From an uncultured Collinsella sp. (lineage in GTDB: Bacteria > Actinomycetota > Coriobacteriia > Coriobacteriales > Coriobacteriaceae), in assembly GCA_934630855.1 (NCBI GenBank), contig CAKTWW010000027.1, positions 1 to 30,095 on the forward strand: a stretch of DNA of 30,095 nt, given 5' to 3'. The notes below the pieces were generated by a model. That model ran no database searches. It was not told the origin of the DNA and saw nothing but the letters and a program-made list of their open reading frames with translations. Below, in pieces: positions 234 to 22,916 of this stretch. The position numbers and the translations under genes were made by a program. The stretch's first letter is position 1. Each line of letters opens with the position of its first letter.

Positions 234-1514
234 ATGTCAGAAGAGCTTCGTTCCATCCCGCCCCAACACGGGTCCTTTGTATTTACGTCGGAGTCGGTGA
301 CCGAAGGCCATCCCGATAAGATTGCTGACCAGATCAGCGATGCCGTCCTCGACGCAATCCTCGCCAAAGAAATAGAGCTCCAGGAGCAGGGCTACATTGC
401 GCCCAACGGCGTGCCCGCCAACGTCGAGAACGTCCGCTGCGCCTGCGAGACCCTCGTGACCACCGGCACCGTCATCGTCGCCGGCGAGATCCGCACCCAG
501 GCCTACGTCGACGTGCAGGAGATCGCCCGTGGCGTTATCCGCCGCATCGGATACGACCGCGCCAAGTTTGGTTTTGACTGCGATACCTGCGGCGTTATGA
601 GCCTTATCCACGAGCAGTCGCCCGACATCGCCCAGGGCGTCGACGAGTCCTTCGAGACCCAGACCGGCGCCACCACCGACCCGATCGACCTGATCGGCGC
701 CGGCGACCAGGGCATGATGTTCGGCTACGCGTCCAACGAGACCAAGACCCTCATGCCCATGCCGCACTACCTGGCAAGCCGCCTGGCCGAGCGCTTGGCC
801 GCCGTTCGTCACGACGGCACCCTGGCCTACCTGCGCCCCGACGGCAAGACCCAGGTCACCGTGCGCTACGAGGATGGCAAGCCCGTGGAAGTCACGACCA
901 TCGTCATCTCCACGCAGCACGCCGCCGAGATCGAGGACATGGGCAAGATCAAGGCCGACCTCATCGAGCACGTCATCACCCCGGTCATGGCTGCCGAGAA
1001 CATGCCGTGGGACAACGCCGACATCTATGTGAACCCCACCGGTCGCTTTGTCGTGGGCGGTCCCATGGGCGACACGGGCCTGACCGGCCGCAAGATCATC
1101 GTCGACACCTACGGCGGCTACGGCCGTCACGGCGGCGGTGCCTTTAGCGGCAAGGACTGCACCAAGGTCGACCGTTCCGCCGCATACGCCGCGCGCTGGG
1201 TCGCCAAGAACGTGGTCGCCGCCGGCCTGGCCGACCGCTGCGAGGTCGAGCTTGCCTACGCCATCGGCGTTTCCAAGCCGCTGTCGATCATGGTCGACAC
1301 CTTCGGCACCGCCAAGGTGGCCGAGGACAAGATCGTCGAGGCCGTCGAGAAGACCTTCGACCTGCGCCCGGGCGCCATCATCCGCGACCTGGACCTGCGT
1401 CGCCCGATCTACGAGAAGACGGCAGCCTACGGCCACTTCGGCCGCGAAGACGCCGACTTCACCTGGGAAAATACCGACCGAGTCGAAGAACTCAAAGCAG
1501 TCTGCGGTCTCTAA
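234..1514 (+). CDS. metK: S-adenosylmethionine synthetase
   Basis: Makes S-adenosylmethionine from methionine and ATP in the cytosol, as a homo-oligomer. The 426-residue protein carries the family signatures in order: TEGHPDK near residue 25 (methionine/ATP site), [12 protein letters not shown] near residue 155, and the glycine-rich GGGAFSGKD near residue 300 that closes on the triphosphate. It is about 40 residues longer than the E. coli enzyme, mostly through insertions, including one near residues 45-60. The start is set by AAAGGA (223-228) five bases before ATG. It is followed by a strong terminator, so it is probably transcribed alone. The antisense open frames across it are codon-bias shadows. 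Confidence 0.97.
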
Positions 1515-1590: not shown

Positions 1591-1681
1591 AACCGGTGGT
1601 GAAGATATTTCGATAAGAGCCCACGCAGCATCACCAGCTGATGAATTTTGCAGCACGGCGACTTCTACCATGTATCCTTAG

Positions 1682-1800
1682 TCTCGAGGGGCGGGGCATA
1701 AGGTCGATCGTGAGTTCCGCACGAGCCGGAGAGCACTTAATGTGCTCTCCGTGCGAGCAGGACTGTCCGAGCAGGCGACCTTATGCCCCGCCCCTCGGGA
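1682..1800 (+). repeat. long palindromic element, copy A: 25-bp arms around a conserved 69-nt core
   Basis: The outer arms 1682-1706 and 1776-1800 are complementary at 24 of 25 positions, and the remaining pair (T1684/G1798) is a wobble. The 69-nt interior (1707-1775) folds again: a 9-bp stem 1728-1736/1742-1750 with loop TTAAT, then GCAC/GTGC (1719-1722/1751-1754) separated by GAGCC and GAGCA bulges. The same core occurs in reverse complement at 19184-19251 with 64 of 69 aligned columns identical, but the outer arms there are unrelated. It lies in the presumed 5' leader of the serine dehydratase gene, ending 25 nt before its start codon. A weak TTGCAG/TATCCT pair (1648-1653/1673-1678, spacing 19) could be the promoter. 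Confidence 0.85.
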
Positions 1801-1825
1801 CGACGGGATAGACAAAGGAGCAGCC

Positions 1826-3433
1826 ATGGCAGGCAAGCCGCAAACACTAGCTACGACCTCGGCATTCGAGATCTTGGGCCCCGTCATGGTCGGCCCCAGC
1901 TCATCGCACACCGCCGGTGCCCTTCGCTGCGCCCAGGTGGCAGCCAGCCTGCTCGAGGGCCGTATCACCAAGGTCACCTTTGGCCTGTGGAACTCCTTCG
2001 CCCACACCTACCGCGGCCACGGCACCGATCGCGCACTCGTGGCGGGCATCCTGGGCCTCGACACCGACGACGAGAACATCAAGCAGGCCTTCGACCTCGC
2101 ACGCGAGCAAAGCCTCGAGTTTCACTTTGACATCAAGGGCGACGACGCGTCCATCCACCCCAACACCGTCGACATCGACATGGTCGACGACACGGGTGCC
2201 ACGGCGCAGGTCCGCGGCGAGAGCCTGGGCGGCGGCAAGATGCGCATCAGCCGCATCAACGGCGTCGGCGTCGACATTTCGGGCATGTATTCCACGCTCT
2301 TCGTGGCACACTACGACGTCCCCGGCGTGCTCGCCGCGCTCACCAACCTGCTCGCCTACGCCCACGTGAACATCGCCTTCTGCCGCACCTACCGCACCGA
2401 GGTGGGCGGCCAGGCCTACTCCGTCTTTGAGACCGATGGCGCGCCCGACGACACCGTCATCCCCATGCTGCGCAAGCTCGATAACGTTGACTACGCGACC
2501 TTTATCGAGCTTCCCGGTTCGGCCTCATCGCTCTCCCCCGGCGTCTCGGCCAAGGAAATCTTCGATGACGGCGAGCAGCTGCTCGACGCCTGCGATGAGC
2601 TGGGACTCAACATCGGCGCCGTCATGGCTGTGCGCGAAGCACGCCTCACCGGCGAGCAGCACGCCGTCGCCGCCATGCGCCGCGTGCTCGAAGTCATGAA
2701 AGACGAGACCACGGCCCCCATCGCCAATCCGCAGCGTTCACTCGGCGGGCTCATCGGCGGCGAGGCAAAGCTCGTCGATGCCACCGGCCGCAACGAGCTT
2801 AGCTCCAGCTTAATGGGCGCCGTGCAGACCGACGCCGTGGCCCGCGCCATGGCCGTGCTCGAGCGCTCCGCCACCATGGGCGTCATCGTCGCCGCCCCCA
2901 CCGCCGGCTCCGCAGGCGTCGTTCCCGGCTGCGTGCTGGCGCTCGCCGACCACCTGCAACTCGACGACGAGCAGGTAATGGATGCCCTCTATTGCGCCGC
3001 CGCCATCGGCCTCAACCTCACCACGAGCGCCTGCGTCGCCGGCGCCGAGGGCGGCTGCCAGGCCGAGGTGGGAAGCGCTGCCGCCATGGCCGCCGCCGCG
3101 CTGGTACAGATGCTCGGCGGCACGCCCGAGCAGGCGCTCGACGCCAGCTCCATCGCGCTGAGCAATCTGCTGGGCCTCGTTTGCGACCCCGTGGGCGGCC
3201 TGGTCGAGGTGCCGTGCCAAAACCGCAACGCCATCGGCGTGGCCGCGGCTTTTAGCTCGGCCCAGCTCGCGCTCGCCGGCATCAAGAGTCTGGTGCCGTT
3301 TGACCAGATGGCGCATGTGATGCTCTCGGTGGGCCACGCCCTGCCGGCAACCCTGCGCGAGACGGCCAAGGGCGGCATCGCGCAAGCCCCGGCCGCGCTT
3401 TCCGCCTGCGCCAAGTGCGGCGTATGCGGGTAG
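1826..3433 (+). CDS. sdaA: L-serine dehydratase, iron-sulfur type, single chain with ACT domain
   Basis: Deaminates L-serine to pyruvate and ammonia with an oxygen-sensitive 4Fe-4S cluster. The chosen ATG has AAAGGAG (1814-1820) five bases upstream; the open frame extends 28 codons further but runs into the palindrome. The 535-residue chain has an N-terminal beta domain (GPSSSHTAG near residue 25), an ACT-like domain around residues 160-240 (the FVAHYDVPGVLA stretch), then the catalytic alpha domain. C411, C453 and C464 have the 42 and 11 residue spacings that I recall for the cluster ligands of Legionella serine dehydratase. The C-terminus (CAKCGVCG) has cysteines fitting the family's tail-in-active-site arrangement. 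It corresponds to B. subtilis SdaAB fused to SdaAA. Confidence 0.93.
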   Translation: MAGKPQTLATTSAFEILGPVMVGPSSSHTAGALRCAQVAASLLEGRITKVTFGLWNSFAHTYRGHGTDRALVAGILGLDTDDENIKQAFDLAREQSLEFHFDIKGDDASIHPNTVDIDMVDDTGATAQVRGESLGGGKMRISRINGVGVDISGMYSTLFVAHYDVPGVLAALTNLLAYAHVNIAFCRTYRTEVGGQAYSVFETDGAPDDTVIPMLRKLDNVDYATFIELPGSASSLSPGVSAKEIFDDGEQLLDACDELGLNIGAVMAVREARLTGEQHAVAAMRRVLEVMKDETTAPIANPQRSLGGLIGGEAKLVDATGRNELSSSLMGAVQTDAVARAMAVLERSATMGVIVAAPTAGSAGVVPGCVLALADHLQLDDEQVMDALYCAAAIGLNLTTSACVAGAEGGCQAEVGSAAAMAAAALVQMLGGTPEQALDASSIALSNLLGLVCDPVGGLVEVPCQNRNAIGVAAAFSSAQLALAGIKSLVPFDQMAHVMLSVGHALPATLRETAKGGIAQAPAALSACAKCGVCG

Positions 3434-10484: not shown

Positions 10485-10499
10485 GGACGACCCCACCTA

Positions 10500-10566
10500 A
10501 GTTGCGGTGAAATACGGACTGCCTACGCTGCTAGAAGGGCCATTCAGTCCCTATTTCACCGCAACT
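10500..10566. repeat. palindrome with conserved arms, copy 1 (variable 23-nt loop)
   Basis: Arms 10500-10521 and 10545-10566 are complementary at 21 of 22 positions (mismatch at C10515) around a 23-nt loop. The arm pair recurs at 19402-19468 with a loop of the same length but unrelated sequence. It sits between the convergent radical SAM and TetR genes, beside the terminator. Confidence 0.85.
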
Positions 10567-10589
10567 CAGAAGGTCGCAAGGCGTCGGAA

Positions 10590-12822: not shown

Positions 12823-12899
12823 TGGTAGCCCGTACCAGATTCGAACTGGTGATCTCCGCCTTGAGAGGGCGGCGTCCTAAACCGCTAGACGAACGGGCC
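12823..12899 (-). tRNA. tRNA-Glu (anticodon CUC), second copy in transcription order
   Basis: The minus strand folds as a full cloverleaf: acceptor GGCCCGT/ACGGGCT, D arm GTCTAGCGGTTTAGGAC, anticodon arm CCGCC-CTCTCAA-GGCGG (anticodon CUC, reading GAG), T arm with GTTCGAATC, and an encoded CCA end. It is identical in sequence to the copy at 12922-12998. Confidence 0.97.
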
Positions 12900-12921
12900 A
12901 TAGGCCTCAGCAGTAAAGAAG

Positions 12922-12998
12922 TGGTAGCCCGTACCAGATTCGAACTGGTGATCTCCGCCTTGAGAGGGCGGCGTCCTAAACCGCTAGACGAACGGGCC
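12922..12998 (-). tRNA. tRNA-Glu (anticodon CUC), first copy in transcription order
   Basis: Same cloverleaf and sequence as the neighbouring copy, with encoded CCA. The two genes are 22 nt apart and are probably cotranscribed from the promoter at 13033-13061. The discriminator base is A, and the first acceptor pair is G-U. Confidence 0.97.
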
Positions 12999-13032
12999 AC
13001 ATGACATCTGCACTGCCGTGCTGCGAGGAAAC

Positions 13033-13121: not shown

Positions 13122-13230
13122 GGTAGCTAATTTGGGACGGGGCTATTTTAGCTGCCCCAGCTGTAAACGCGAACGGTTTGGTTGTTGCTCGGCCGGGGTA
13201 GCTAAAAAGCCCCGTCCTAAATTAGCTACC
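13122..13230. repeat. long palindrome overlapping the 3' end of cca
   Basis: Arms 13122-13158 and 13195-13230 match with two mismatches and one single-base indel (key blocks GGTAGCTAATTT, GGACGGGGC and TTTAGCT) around a 36-nt loop. The right arm contains the cca stop codon (13226-13228). No T-run follows on either strand, so it is not a classical terminator. Confidence 0.8.
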
Positions 13231-18739: not shown

Positions 18740-19003
18740 CTACTCGCCAAGACCGCTCTTGATGAGCTCGATGGCAGCAGCCAGAGCCTCGGCCTCGTCA
18801 GCGCCGTCGCACTTGACCTCGACCTCGGTACCGCAAGGGATACCAGCAGCCATGAGGGCCATCGGGGACTTACCGTTGACCTCCTTCTCGGGGGTGACGA
18901 CGGTCACGTCGCAGGCATACTTGCCCATGGTGGAGGCGAAGAGGCCGGCGGGACGCATGTGAAGACCCTGCGGGTTGACGAGGGTAGCCTTCTCAGAAAC
19001 CAT
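18740..19003 (-). CDS. ptsH: phosphocarrier protein HPr
   Basis: Carries phosphate from enzyme I to the IIA domain of FruA. The 87-residue protein has the active-site His15 in GLHMRPAG and a Ser at position 46 in GKSPMALM, the position phosphorylated by HPr kinase in Firmicutes. AAAGGAG lies 6 nt before ATG. It is the first gene of the ptsH-ptsI-fruK run. The upstream 139 nt contain an AT-rich promoter-like stretch (TTAATATAAA on the minus strand), and then a 152-nt palindromic element. Confidence 0.95.
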   Translation of the reverse strand: MVSEKATLVNPQGLHMRPAGLFASTMGKYACDVTVVTPEKEVNGKSPMALMAAGIPCGTEVEVKCDGADEAEALAAAIELIKSGLGE

Positions 19004-19141: not shown

Positions 19142-19293
19142 GCTTGCTCGCCCACGGAGGGCCGGGCGCGGCCTGTGAGATTTCCTGCTCTACAGTCCTG
19201 CTCGCACGAAGAGCACATTAAGTGCTCTTCGGCTCGTGCGGAACTCGCGATAAATCTCTCAGGCCGCGCCCGGCCCTCCGTGGGCGAGCAAGC
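19142..19293 (-). repeat. long palindromic element, copy B: 42-bp arms around the conserved core
   Basis: Arms 19142-19183 and 19252-19293 are complementary at 41 of 42 positions (T19176/T19259 mismatch). The 68-nt interior (19184-19251) is the reverse complement of the core at 1707-1775. Its inner 9-bp stem (19208-19216/19222-19230) has an A-T pair where copy A has G-C. On the minus strand the core reads in the same direction as ptsH, whose start codon is 138 nt beyond the element. Confidence 0.9.
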
Positions 19294-19401: not shown

Positions 19402-19468
19402 AGTTGCGATGAAATAGGGACTGAATTTGGGGTTGAAACGTTTAAGCAGTCCCTATTTCACCGCAACT
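19402..19468. repeat. palindrome with conserved arms, copy 2 (variable 23-nt loop)
   Basis: Arms 19402-19423 and 19447-19468 are complementary at 21 of 22 positions (mismatch at A19409). Their sequence is that of the arms at 10500-10566, with the right arm identical at all 22 positions. The 23-nt loop has the same length as in copy 1 but unrelated sequence. It lies 12 nt from the fruA terminator. Confidence 0.88.
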
Positions 19469-19552: not shown

Positions 19553-21565
19553 TTAGACCAGACGGGCGTTGATCGTCTTGGCGATCTCGGCAGCGTCAGC
19601 GGAACCCTTGACGGTGGCACGGAAGTCTTCGTCCATGAGCGCCTCGGCGACCTTGGACAGAATCTTGAGGTGCGTGGTGCCAGCCTGGGCGCCCGGGATG
19701 AGCAGGGCGATGGCAACATTGACGGGAGCGCCGTCCATGGTGTCCCAACCGGTCACGCCGGACTCGTCCTTGACGACGATGACGGCGGCCTCGGTGATGG
19801 CATCGGACTTGGCATGCGGGATAGCGAAGCCCTCCATCATACCCGTGGTGCCCTCGGCCTCGCGGGCCAGGAAGGCGTTCATAACAGCGTCGGCATCGTT
19901 GGCGAGACCGGCCTTGACGGCCTGGTTGGAGACAAAGCTCAGGGCCTCGTCACGAGAAGCGAAGTCCTCGGCGACAAAAACGTTCTCGACCTTCACGAAG
20001 TCGGCAGCCTCGGCCTTGGGAGCCTCGACGGCAGCAGCCTTGGGAGCCTCGACCGGCTTGGCAGCGGGGGCAGCAGGGGCAGCCTTCTGGCTCTTCTCGA
20101 AGTCATACTTCTTAAAGGCCACGAACAGGATGCCACCGACCACAGCACCGATGAGGATCGCGAGGACCCACAGCGGACCGTTCTCGACAACGGGCAGGAC
20201 CAGGAAGCCACCGTGGGGCGCCGGATCGTGGACGTTGAACATGATGGTCAGGATCGAAGCGATGGAGGAACCGAGCATCATGATCGGCATGACGGGCCAG
20301 ATGTTCTTGGTCATGAACGGAATGGCACCCTCGGTGATGTGGGTGCAACCAAGGATGAGGTTGACGATACCGGCGTCATGATCCTCCTGGCTGAAGTACT
20401 TCTTGCCGACAACGACGGCGAAGGTGGTGATCAGCGGCGGAACGATGCAGGCGGCGGAGACGGCAGCCATGAAGTTGGTGCCGAAGTTGTAGGTGTCGGT
20501 GCCGACACCAGCGGCCAGGGCCTCGGTAAGCATAGCGGTACCGGTGACGTAAGCGGCCTTGTTGACCGGGCCGCCCATGTCAAAGGCGCACATGCAGCCG
20601 ATGGCAAGACCCAGGACGATGGCGCCAGAGGCGGACAGGCCCTTGAGGAAGTCCATCATAGCGGTGTTGATGGCAGCCATGGGACCGGAGATGCCGAGCA
20701 TGACCATGCCCACGATGAACGTGGAGAACAGCGGGTAGAGGAAGATGGCCTTCAGGCCGTTGAGGTTCTGAGGCAGCTTGGCAAAGACCTTCTCCAGCAG
20801 CAAGATAACGTAACCGGAAAGGAAACCACCGACGATACCGCCGAGGAAGCCAAAGCCCACGCCCGAGCCACCGGCGTCGATCAGGCCGGTCTCAGGCGAG
20901 ACGGGCAGACCGGTGATGGCGATCATACCGGCAACGAAGCCGGGAACGAGCGCCGGACGCTTGCCGATAGACTCGGCGATATAGGCCGAAAGCACCGGAA
21001 CCATGAGGTTCATGGCAATGCCACCGATGATCTTGAGCATCGCGGCGAAGGTGTTGTACTGAGCGTTCGTGGAGTCGAACGACATGATGCCCCACAGGAA
21101 CGAAACAGCGGTCAGGACACCACCGGCGACGACGAAGACCAGCATGTGGCTGACGCCGTTCATGAGGTGCTTGTAGATGATGTGGCCGACGGACTCCTTC
21201 TCCTCGACCTCGTCCTCGACATCGGCAGCGGCAGCAACCGAGTCGTCGCCCTTGGCGGCGAGCGCGCGGTCAATCAGCTTGCCGGCGGCCTCGACGGACA
21301 GGGCCTTGGAAACACCAACGGAAACCATGGGCTTACCGGCGAAACGCTCCGCCTGGACATCCTTGTCGGCTGCGACGACGACGGCCTTGGCACCGGCGAT
21401 CTCACCCTTCGTGAGCTCGTTCTCGACACCGACCTGGCCATGGGTCTCAACCTTAATGGTCAGACCGCGCTCGGCAGCTGCCTTCTCCAGCGCCTCCTTC
21501 GCCATGAAGGTGTGCGCGATACCGGTCGGGCAACCGGTGGCGGCGATGATGTCAAACTTAGCCAT
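19553..21565 (-). CDS. fruA: fructose-specific PTS permease, fused IIB-IIC-IIA
   Basis: Imports fructose and phosphorylates it to fructose-1-phosphate. The 670-residue protein carries an N-terminal IIB domain with Cys12 in ATGCPTGIAHTFMA, a membrane IIC domain from about residue 125 to 480 (GFLGGIVGGFLSGY, DMGGPVNKAAY, HITEGAIPF), an Ala/Pro linker (about 490-520), and a C-terminal IIA domain with His584 in GFAIPHAKSDA. The ATG at 21565 has GGAGG upstream; the longer open frame adds 33 codons of unlikely sequence. The B-C-A order differs from the A-B-C order of some FruA proteins. A GC palindrome (21588-21601) lies in the leader. Regulation probably involves the divergent RpiR-type gene. Confidence 0.94.
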   Translation of the reverse strand: MAKFDIIAATGCPTGIAHTFMAKEALEKAAAERGLTIKVETHGQVGVENELTKGEIAGAKAVVVAADKDVQAERFAGKPMVSVGVSKALSVEAAGKLIDRALAAKGDDSVAAAADVEDEVEEKESVGHIIYKHLMNGVSHMLVFVVAGGVLTAVSFLWGIMSFDSTNAQYNTFAAMLKIIGGIAMNLMVPVLSAYIAESIGKRPALVPGFVAGMIAITGLPVSPETGLIDAGGSGVGFGFLGGIVGGFLSGYVILLLEKVFAKLPQNLNGLKAIFLYPLFSTFIVGMVMLGISGPMAAINTAMMDFLKGLSASGAIVLGLAIGCMCAFDMGGPVNKAAYVTGTAMLTEALAAGVGTDTYNFGTNFMAAVSAACIVPPLITTFAVVVGKKYFSQEDHDAGIVNLILGCTHITEGAIPFMTKNIWPVMPIMMLGSSIASILTIMFNVHDPAPHGGFLVLPVVENGPLWVLAILIGAVVGGILFVAFKKYDFEKSQKAAPAAPAAKPVEAPKAAAVEAPKAEAADFVKVENVFVAEDFASRDEALSFVSNQAVKAGLANDADAVMNAFLAREAEGTTGMMEGFAIPHAKSDAITEAAVIVVKDESGVTGWDTMDGAPVNVAIALLIPGAQAGTTHLKILSKVAEALMDEDFRATVKGSADAAEIAKTINARLV

Positions 21566-21688
21566 GTGTCCCTCCTTCTTGAGTTCTGCGCCCGCGGGCG
21601 CTCCCCTACACGCGCTTCTTACGCGCTTTTCCACAACTGAAAGATACCAACCCAACGCTTGCATGAGAAGAGATAAGGCGCAATTCTC

Positions 21689-22694: not shown

Positions 22695-22722
22695 GCAATG
22701 TGACAAGCTCCTTGAGGCTGCT

Positions 22723-22882
22723 GCCACGAAAGCCGCCCATCTACTACGTTTTAGCCGTGGGGGCCAACCATAGACACAAAACAGAGAAAACCGCAGGCGT
22801 TCTACCTGCGGTTTTCTCTTTGTCAATATTGGCATGGTTGGCGGTGCCCCACTAAACGTAGTAGATAGCCGCATTTCGTGGC
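22723..22882. repeat. 160-nt nested palindrome between rpiR and recN
   Basis: Left blocks GCCACGAAA, ATCTACTACGTTT, GTGGGG and CCAACCAT recur in reverse complement and reverse order on the right side, with small gaps. At the centre sits a terminator stem. It fills most of the gap between two convergent genes. Confidence 0.85.
22783..22821. terminator. bidirectional terminator for the RpiR-type gene and recN
   Basis: AGAGAAAACCGCAGG (22783-22797) pairs perfectly with CCTGCGGTTTTCTCT (22805-22819) around a 7-nt loop. The stem itself carries the A- and T-runs, so it can serve both convergent genes. Confidence 0.88.
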
Positions 22883-22916
22883 GGGCGGCTCCGAACAAGC
22901 ATGTGGTGGGGCTTAA

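Follow-up and report, generated by a model that had tools for sequence, protein, structure and literature searches.

An Interspersed Hairpin Repeat Family of Coriobacteriales with a Conserved Core and Variable, Self-Complementary Arms

Two related hairpin elements in a Collinsella contig

The window analyzed here is a stretch of 30,095 nucleotides of DNA from an uncultured Collinsella sp. It contains two palindromic elements, A and B, each located between two genes. Their parts and the neighboring genes are as follows.

234..1514, + strand: S-adenosylmethionine synthetase gene, upstream neighbor of A (Pfam PF00438/PF02772/PF02773)
1681-1801, + strand: element A, between the S-adenosylmethionine synthetase gene and the L-serine dehydratase gene
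1681..1706, + strand: left arm of A, 26 nt, inverted repeat with 25/26 positions paired with 1776-1801 (pairing count)
1707..1775, + strand: conserved core of A, 69 nt (core alignment)
1728..1750, + strand: apical hairpin of the core of A, GGAGAGCAC-TTAAT-GTGCTCTCC, a helix that covaries between copies
1776..1801, + strand: right arm of A (pairing count)
1826..3433, + strand: L-serine dehydratase gene (SDH beta + alpha), downstream neighbor of A (Pfam PF03315/PF03313)
18743..19003, − strand: HPr gene, downstream neighbor of B, stop codon at 18740-18742 (Pfam PF00381)
19142-19293, − strand: element B, between the PTS EII gene and the HPr gene
19142..19183, − strand: right arm of B in the orientation of the element, 42 nt, inverted repeat with 41/42 positions paired (pairing count)
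19184..19251, − strand: conserved core of B, 68 nt (core alignment, inverted repeat)
19208..19230, − strand: apical hairpin of the core of B, GAAGAGCAC-TTAAT-GTGCTCTTC (fold, covariation)
19252..19293, − strand: left arm of B in the orientation of the element (pairing count)
19553..21664, − strand: PTS EII gene (IIB-IIC-IIA2), upstream neighbor of B (Pfam PF02302/PF02378/PF00359)

The alignment of core A (1707-1775, + strand) with core B (19251-19184, − strand) reproduced the count given in a first-pass annotation of this DNA, 64 identical out of 69 aligned columns. The arms are the near-perfect inverted repeats described there; A has 24/25 pairs at the earlier coordinates. The dissimilarity of the arms was also borne out for this pair, whose left arms are alike at only 10/25 positions. 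The folds had z scores of −9.6 (A) and −13.6 (B), and none of 200 dinucleotide shuffles of either element folded as well. A scan of the window against Rfam at the curated gathering cut-off returned two tRNAs only. The hits of the elements were far below the cut-off (PreQ1-III for A, miRNA and sRNA models for B), and a known Rfam RNA family was therefore not supported at that threshold.

The window includes other repeated structures. A second pair of palindromic repeats, built on AGTCCCTATTTCACCGCAACT, occupies 10497-10569 and 19402-19468, one copy being 109 bp from B. At 13122-13230, two 27-nt arms separated by 55 nt form an inverted repeat (GGTAGCTAATTTGGGACGGGGC) near a pair of identical tRNA genes (12823-12999) whose starts are 99 bp apart, and an imperfect 38-nt inverted repeat at 22714-22891 encloses a terminator-like hairpin.

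Reach, anatomy and gene context of the repeat family

A and B both belong to a single family of interspersed repeats in Coriobacteriales that form hairpins and are non-coding. In a search of one genome per GTDB species, the core pattern matched 45 stretches, every one on Collinsella contigs. BLAST searches, with at most about 21 best candidates scored per genome, located the family in 37/43 Collinsella genomes. A covariance model was built from 29 copies; 17 of its 23 consensus pairs changed on both sides among copies. Applied to the order with stricter filters and the best 21 candidates scored per genome, it detected the family in 99/197 Coriobacteriales genomes. Phylum-wide, 24/396 genomes matched, of which 23 were already among the Coriobacteriales hits; the other one was G225 (best E = 2.8e-6). 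The 30 best copies listed from 12 genomes not in the genus list mostly retain the core (GAGTTCCGCACGAGCCG, the hairpin and CGTGCGAGC-AGGACTG) between different arms; greater divergence was seen in those from G065 and G077 and in one from G053. The distinct copies extracted from four genomes numbered 32 in G018, 27 in G027, 29 in G007 and 32 in G030, including a truncated one (L071). The search for the core across Collinsella and other Coriobacteriia that the first-pass annotation had proposed thus yielded many copies, and scarcity no longer speaks against the pattern. No match was found in viral contigs (IMG/VR, one exact pattern) or in phage records (blastn). The sole match in a plasmid record, NZ_OY725717.1 (L312), is a 900-kb Collinsella record labelled plasmid 6 that carries purH, topoisomerase I and tmk and is therefore probably chromosomal. 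A phage or plasmid origin was rejected on these grounds. A description of the family was not found among the open-licence papers listed by the literature searches, and it is apparently a so far undescribed repeat family of common human gut bacteria.

One copy consists of a conserved, asymmetric core of about 60-69 nt within a stem of usually 22-45 bp. The 5′ side of the core has an invariant TTCCGCACG, a CAGGACTG-like stretch is strongly conserved on the 3′ side, and the apical hairpin is closed by TTAAT or CAGT-like loops. The apical and inner helices vary as matched pairs between subtypes (GCACGAGCCGG/CCGTGCGAGC, CGCAAAGG/CCGTCTTGCG and CGAACAGG/CCGTCGTGAG). The arms of 177 distinct elements measure 13-49 bp, with quartiles of 26, 30 and 34. 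Over the first 24 arm positions, the two arms of a copy are 95-99% complementary within the delimited arm in G007, G018 and G027, and looser, 80-97%, in G030. Because the arms were delimited by an extension that favors pairing, all copies of the first three genomes were also counted regardless of where the arm ends, which gave 89-99%. The identity of arms between copies is only 30-50% in G007, G018 and G027. Consequently, the arrangement first noticed in A and B, a conserved inside and a variable but self-complementary outside, holds across the family. A total of 260 element records was available, of which 199 were used in the comparison of sites, 192 in the table of the bases at the feet of the arms and 177 in the mismatch count; records were left out when they were too near an end, duplicated or had weak ungapped arms.

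Few copies lie inside called reading frames (2/29 in G007, 2/32 in G018, 1/27 in G027 and 3/32 in G030), and our own ORF caller misplaces some starts, so that the orthologue of A appears inside a frame in G018 and G007. The copies tend to have the 3′ side of the core near a gene boundary, as for repeats that are tolerated or used in untranslated regions. This side was 30-60 bp from a boundary in 16/29 copies of G018, 15/25 of G027, 13/26 of G007 and 11/28 of G030, whereas the 5′ side was at that distance in 0, 0, 0 and 3 copies, respectively; these counts skip 3, 2, 3 and 4 copies in the same order of genomes, which are in-frame or have a missing neighbor. Between convergent genes, the copies are antisense to the nearer gene in 8/8 cases in G018, 9/10 in G027, 8/8 in G007 and 2/3 in G030, many of these sites being orthologous. 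All 19 pairs of copies with starts within 400 bp in six Collinsella genomes (G007, G016, G017, G018, G027 and G030) point outward, "−" then "+", and several of these pairs are orthologous; G077 has one same-strand pair. In one annotated record, the matched stretch stops 43 bp short of the 3′ end of manA. A stretch of about 2 kb with two ORFs, which resemble an AbiE-type toxin-antitoxin pair, lies between two outward-pointing copies in L005 (1985-4260) and L040 (252-2530). Related genomes have a short terminator-bearing spacer in its place, and similar terminator hairpins are found at both ends of the 2-kb stretch.

Paired change of the arms at orthologous sites

The 199 usable records were grouped by their flanks into 32 orthologous sites, and arm haplotypes were considered different when an ungapped comparison of up to 24 nt gave an identity below 75%. 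Nineteen of the 32 sites had at least two arm haplotypes and 13 had one. In pairwise comparisons, which are not independent of each other, arm pairs were unchanged in 12750 cases, changed on two sides in 2567 and on one side in 529; as the comparison is ungapped, one paired indel counts as several paired changes. One-sided changes equal or exceed two-sided ones at a minority of sites, mostly those with a single haplotype. Control hairpins taken from the same flanks gave the opposite result, 288 two-sided versus 1389 one-sided changes (23 hairpins). When the controls were perfect stems of at least 8, 10 or 12 bp, the two-sided to one-sided ratios were 0.10, 0.07 and 0.02 (28, 16 and 4 hairpins), and over all control sets the ratio ranged from 0.02 to 0.21. 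These results indicated that paired change belongs to these elements and not to the hairpins of the region in general. Haplotypes of the same site have an identity of 0.71 over the four positions nearest the core, which falls to 0.4-0.5 in mid-arm and is 0.60 over the outermost four, and 21/34 haplotype pairs also differ in the core. The allele differences show sites that are long-lived in the C. aerofaciens complex, at which the arms and the core subtype appear to be rewritten in place. Arm change is episodic: site A has two haplotypes in 21 relatives, and a site with 18 records has one.

Individual sites provided views of possible intermediates. Site A is filled in 21/21 close relatives, of which 6 have one arm haplotype and 15 the other; seven carriers of the second haplotype retain, adjoining the element, a remnant of the right arm of the first. 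Among nine more distant genomes listed for this site, eight have no element and one (L113) has an element of another subtype. In 19/21 relatives the site of B is occupied by an element, either complete or interrupted where a contig stops; of the two others, L122 has a deletion scar and L119 a contig end. The elements at this site fall into two core subtypes (12 and 7) whose arms differ, some outer bases being common to both. In G018, a single-contig genome, the core at site B is inverted between unchanged arms (L130/L171), and in G009 the left arm of one allele is combined with the right arm of another (L015 and L131, which are the same copy). These were the only core inversion and the only clearly half-converted copy. 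Comparison of L064 with L027 showed identical arms holding different core subtypes at one site (L064).

At the valS site, the 22 close relatives fall into three groups. Nine carry a core between arms of one haplotype, and six carry a second haplotype (one cut by a contig end). In the remaining seven, the outer arms of the first haplotype form a plain hairpin that lacks the core and has a loop of four bases. These coreless hairpins have two mismatches in L289, L296 and L297 and one in L290; correction is therefore not automatic. The outgroup C. bouchesdurhonensis (G016, L299) has an element of the same core subtype, and the other seven distant genomes listed have none. Since the outgroup keeps this subtype, the coreless state more likely reflects loss than gain of the core, and insertion of a core into a ready-made hairpin was rejected as the preferred explanation, with independent gain remaining a lesser possibility. 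The first-pass annotation looked to orthologous loci without the core to learn which arm is ancestral. At valS both arms persist without it, which bears on this question: the arrival of a core need not have produced either arm as a new copy.

Known repeat families and the possible origin of the arms

MITEs are short, non-coding, dispersed inverted-repeat elements whose terminal inverted repeats are shared between copies. The present family is likewise short, non-coding, dispersed and made of inverted repeats, but its terminal inverted repeats are not common to most copies, the exceptions being young copies in G030. Reading of individual loci brought no related full-length transposon to notice. 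The ends of REPINs are strongly conserved and their middle less so (PMC3116915, PMC2817692, PMC3733652). Our family resembles REP/REPIN sequences in its many extragenic, hairpin-forming, non-coding copies per genome and in the compensatory changes of its stems. It differs in that the middle is conserved and the ends vary, so that conserved terminal palindromes are lacking, and in that it lacks a constant tag such as GTAG, the left foot showing no more than a preference for A (112/192 records). The first-pass statement that conservation is reversed relative to MITEs and REP elements was thus confirmed.

A further difference concerns the RAYT transposases, whose genes are flanked by inverted copies in the REP/REPIN systems. 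Y1_Tnp genes were present in 10/10 Collinsella genomes searched, and every one of these genomes had one or more such frames of RAYT size (259-348 aa). However, pairwise searches found no core in ten Y1_Tnp loci, four or five of them RAYT-like, and the covariance model gave weak scores only, the best (E = 0.0017) in an IS200-type locus, L080. Among 197 genomes, 65 have the element and a RAYT, 34 the element only, 34 a RAYT only and 64 neither (p = 2e-5, odds 3.6); outside the listed Collinsella, the first three numbers are 34, 31 and 34. A RAYT was not detected at E<=1e-10 in 34/99 element-bearing genomes, one of which has 38 element matches; incomplete assemblies and divergent genes limit the figure of 34/99. 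A RAYT as a necessary partner was therefore not supported, although the presence of the two is associated. In G030, a different palindrome, AATGCGYCATTTAGGGTC, stands on both sides of the RAYT-like gene (L085, 1077-1966); this palindrome, or one very like it, also lies beside young G030 copies of the element in L218, L220, L230, L231 and L238.

The arms are not unrelated in all cases. The dissimilarity that the first-pass annotation described for A and B extends to most copies, at the 30-50% identity given above, and fails for the young copies of G030. There, six or more copies from different locations have about 19-23 nt of each arm in common, and their outer ends are similar. Thus, of two observations that would have told against its reading, a small number of copies and shared arms, the second was made in part. 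In all four genomes tested, inner arms resembling the arm of another locus exceeded column-shuffled controls: matches of at least 14/18 were found for 8/28, 6/29, 7/26 and 18/28 arms, and the shuffled means were 0.5, 0.4, 0.4 and 1.0. The shared arms of G030 together with this excess suggest that the hairpin spreads whole and that likeness fades later while complementarity is kept. The arms probably travel with the core and then diverge in concert, as judged from one genome, G030.

Possible donors were sought with the outer arms (inner 10 nt removed, 127 distinct kinds) as matches of at least 14 nt in 1.38 Mb of redundant DNA. Another family member was matched by 29/127 outer arms versus 2/127 after shuffling, a few of the 29 possibly being orthologues with diverged flanks. 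Matches to non-element DNA numbered 22/127 versus 25/127 after shuffling, and some of them are remnants or coreless elements. Therefore, family members are one source of arms and random chromosomal DNA is no visible source. Fold-back copying of other chromosomal DNA into the arms, and with it the first-pass suggestion that the core seeds copying of flanking DNA, was not supported in the DNA searched. The 85/127 outer arms without any match in the DNA searched imply that exchange between members explains only part of the variation.

The explanation that we favor, with about even confidence and as read from alleles, is a hairpin repeat of REP-like type in which exchange between members and fold-back (template-switch) correction rewrite the arms. 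The whole hairpin would spread as a unit, young copies carrying related arms. Mutation, or exchange with another member, would alter one side in a first step, and fold-back or template-switch synthesis on the other arm would restore complementarity in a second. The expected outcomes would be paired changes, half-converted arms and an occasional core inversion; slippage may now and then remove the tip and leave a coreless hairpin, and recombination between lineages would spread the arm haplotypes. Template switching has been described that homogenizes the arms of inverted repeats and inverts spacers (PMC8604942) and that maintains stems by multi-base paired changes (PMC8794818). Arm homogenization, multi-base paired changes and spacer inversion, the last seen only once here, are points of likeness to the quasipalindromes covered there. 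The cases described there are single hairpins; here the process would act on a whole family with like cores and would swap most of a 20-40 bp arm. Of the first-pass ideas, fold-back copying is supported for the correction half, in view of the paired changes, the one half-converted pair and the one inverted core. An invertible segment finds its single true inversion at site B of G018, which looks like a by-product and not a switch.

A structured RNA, the third of the first-pass ideas, was considered as well. The element would be transcribed, the stem selected for pairing only and maintained by compensatory mutations, and the core kept by a binding partner. The retention of the core in most of the distant copies listed and the covariation of 17/23 consensus pairs agree with it. 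On the core strand, arm mismatches of the G.T type, which would be wobble pairs if that strand is RNA, outnumber the A.C type by 82 to 33 in 177 distinct elements, an excess that would fit folding of this strand as RNA or as single-stranded DNA. The counts are 45 versus 9 in G018, G030 and G016 together, and the pooled other loci have no bias (23 versus 22); a strand-biased mutation pattern could produce the excess too. The large excess of two-sided over one-sided arm changes, reversed in control hairpins, and the swapping of whole arm stretches instead of single pairs are not what such selection predicts. The inverted core at site B in G018 and the failure to match Rfam at its cut-off also count against it. 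A promoter reading through the core strand was rejected, as no promoter-like excess was found upstream on that strand (0/25, 0/21 and 0/28 copies with at least 9/12 matches). Taken together, we regard a structured RNA as unlikely.

Repeated transposition ranks next and is also unlikely. An element with short terminal marks would excise and re-insert at preferred sites, so that haplotypes would be separate insertions. In G030, six or more similar copies have arisen by a recent expansion, which would agree with mobility. Immediately beyond the left arm there is an A in 112/192 records (11/21 in G007, 15/24 in G018, 13/19 in G027 and 13/30 in G030), and immediately beyond the right arm a G in 103/192; the commonest 4-mer immediately outside an arm accounts for 15/192. 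The outermost arm bases are common to haplotypes at sites L061, L063 and L074, while over all sites the outermost four bases are only 0.60 identical between haplotypes. The element is absent from four genomes at site L048; these could be the true empty sites predicted for a mobile element, but no palindromic target is seen there by eye. No restored empty target was found in close relatives at A, where all are filled, at B, with its one scar and one contig end, or at valS, where 22/22 are filled or coreless. In a three-genome comparison there was one true inversion, and the other inverted matches were cross-matches within close pairs. The RAYT type, the mobilizer that was searched for, is undetected in a third of the carriers, as described above.

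A more doubtful proposal than these gives the core the role of a cis signal, by which an activity of the host, or one acting in trans, would recognize the core-strand hairpin and drive the copying of one arm onto the other, with other copies as donors. If so, the genome would carry perfect hairpins that are renewable, specific to the lineage and placed next to stop and start codons. Finally, ordinary homologous recombination in the C. aerofaciens complex may spread a few ancient arm haplotypes, the element not being special. Recombination between lineages alone could distribute old haplotypes. In its favor, haplotypes per site are few (site A has two among 21 relatives), and both the mixed G009 allele and the right-arm remnant beside another element at site A look recombinational. 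Nevertheless, the flanks of these alleles are 0.83-0.98 identical and the arms strongly different yet paired, and neither the source of this paired novelty nor its lack in neighboring hairpins is explained. As a full account, this is improbable.

The origin and upkeep of long perfect hairpins are usually studied on single hairpins. The family allows the study of how bacterial genomes build and keep them, since it supplies dozens of sites per genome in many genomes, a core that marks the center, adjacent control hairpins and visible intermediates. If rewriting by exchange and fold-back correction is right, arm-conversion rates and donors would be directly measurable. Draft contigs ending inside or beside copies (L008, L010, L019, L033, L120 and L121) were also observed; the element therefore probably breaks short-read assemblies.
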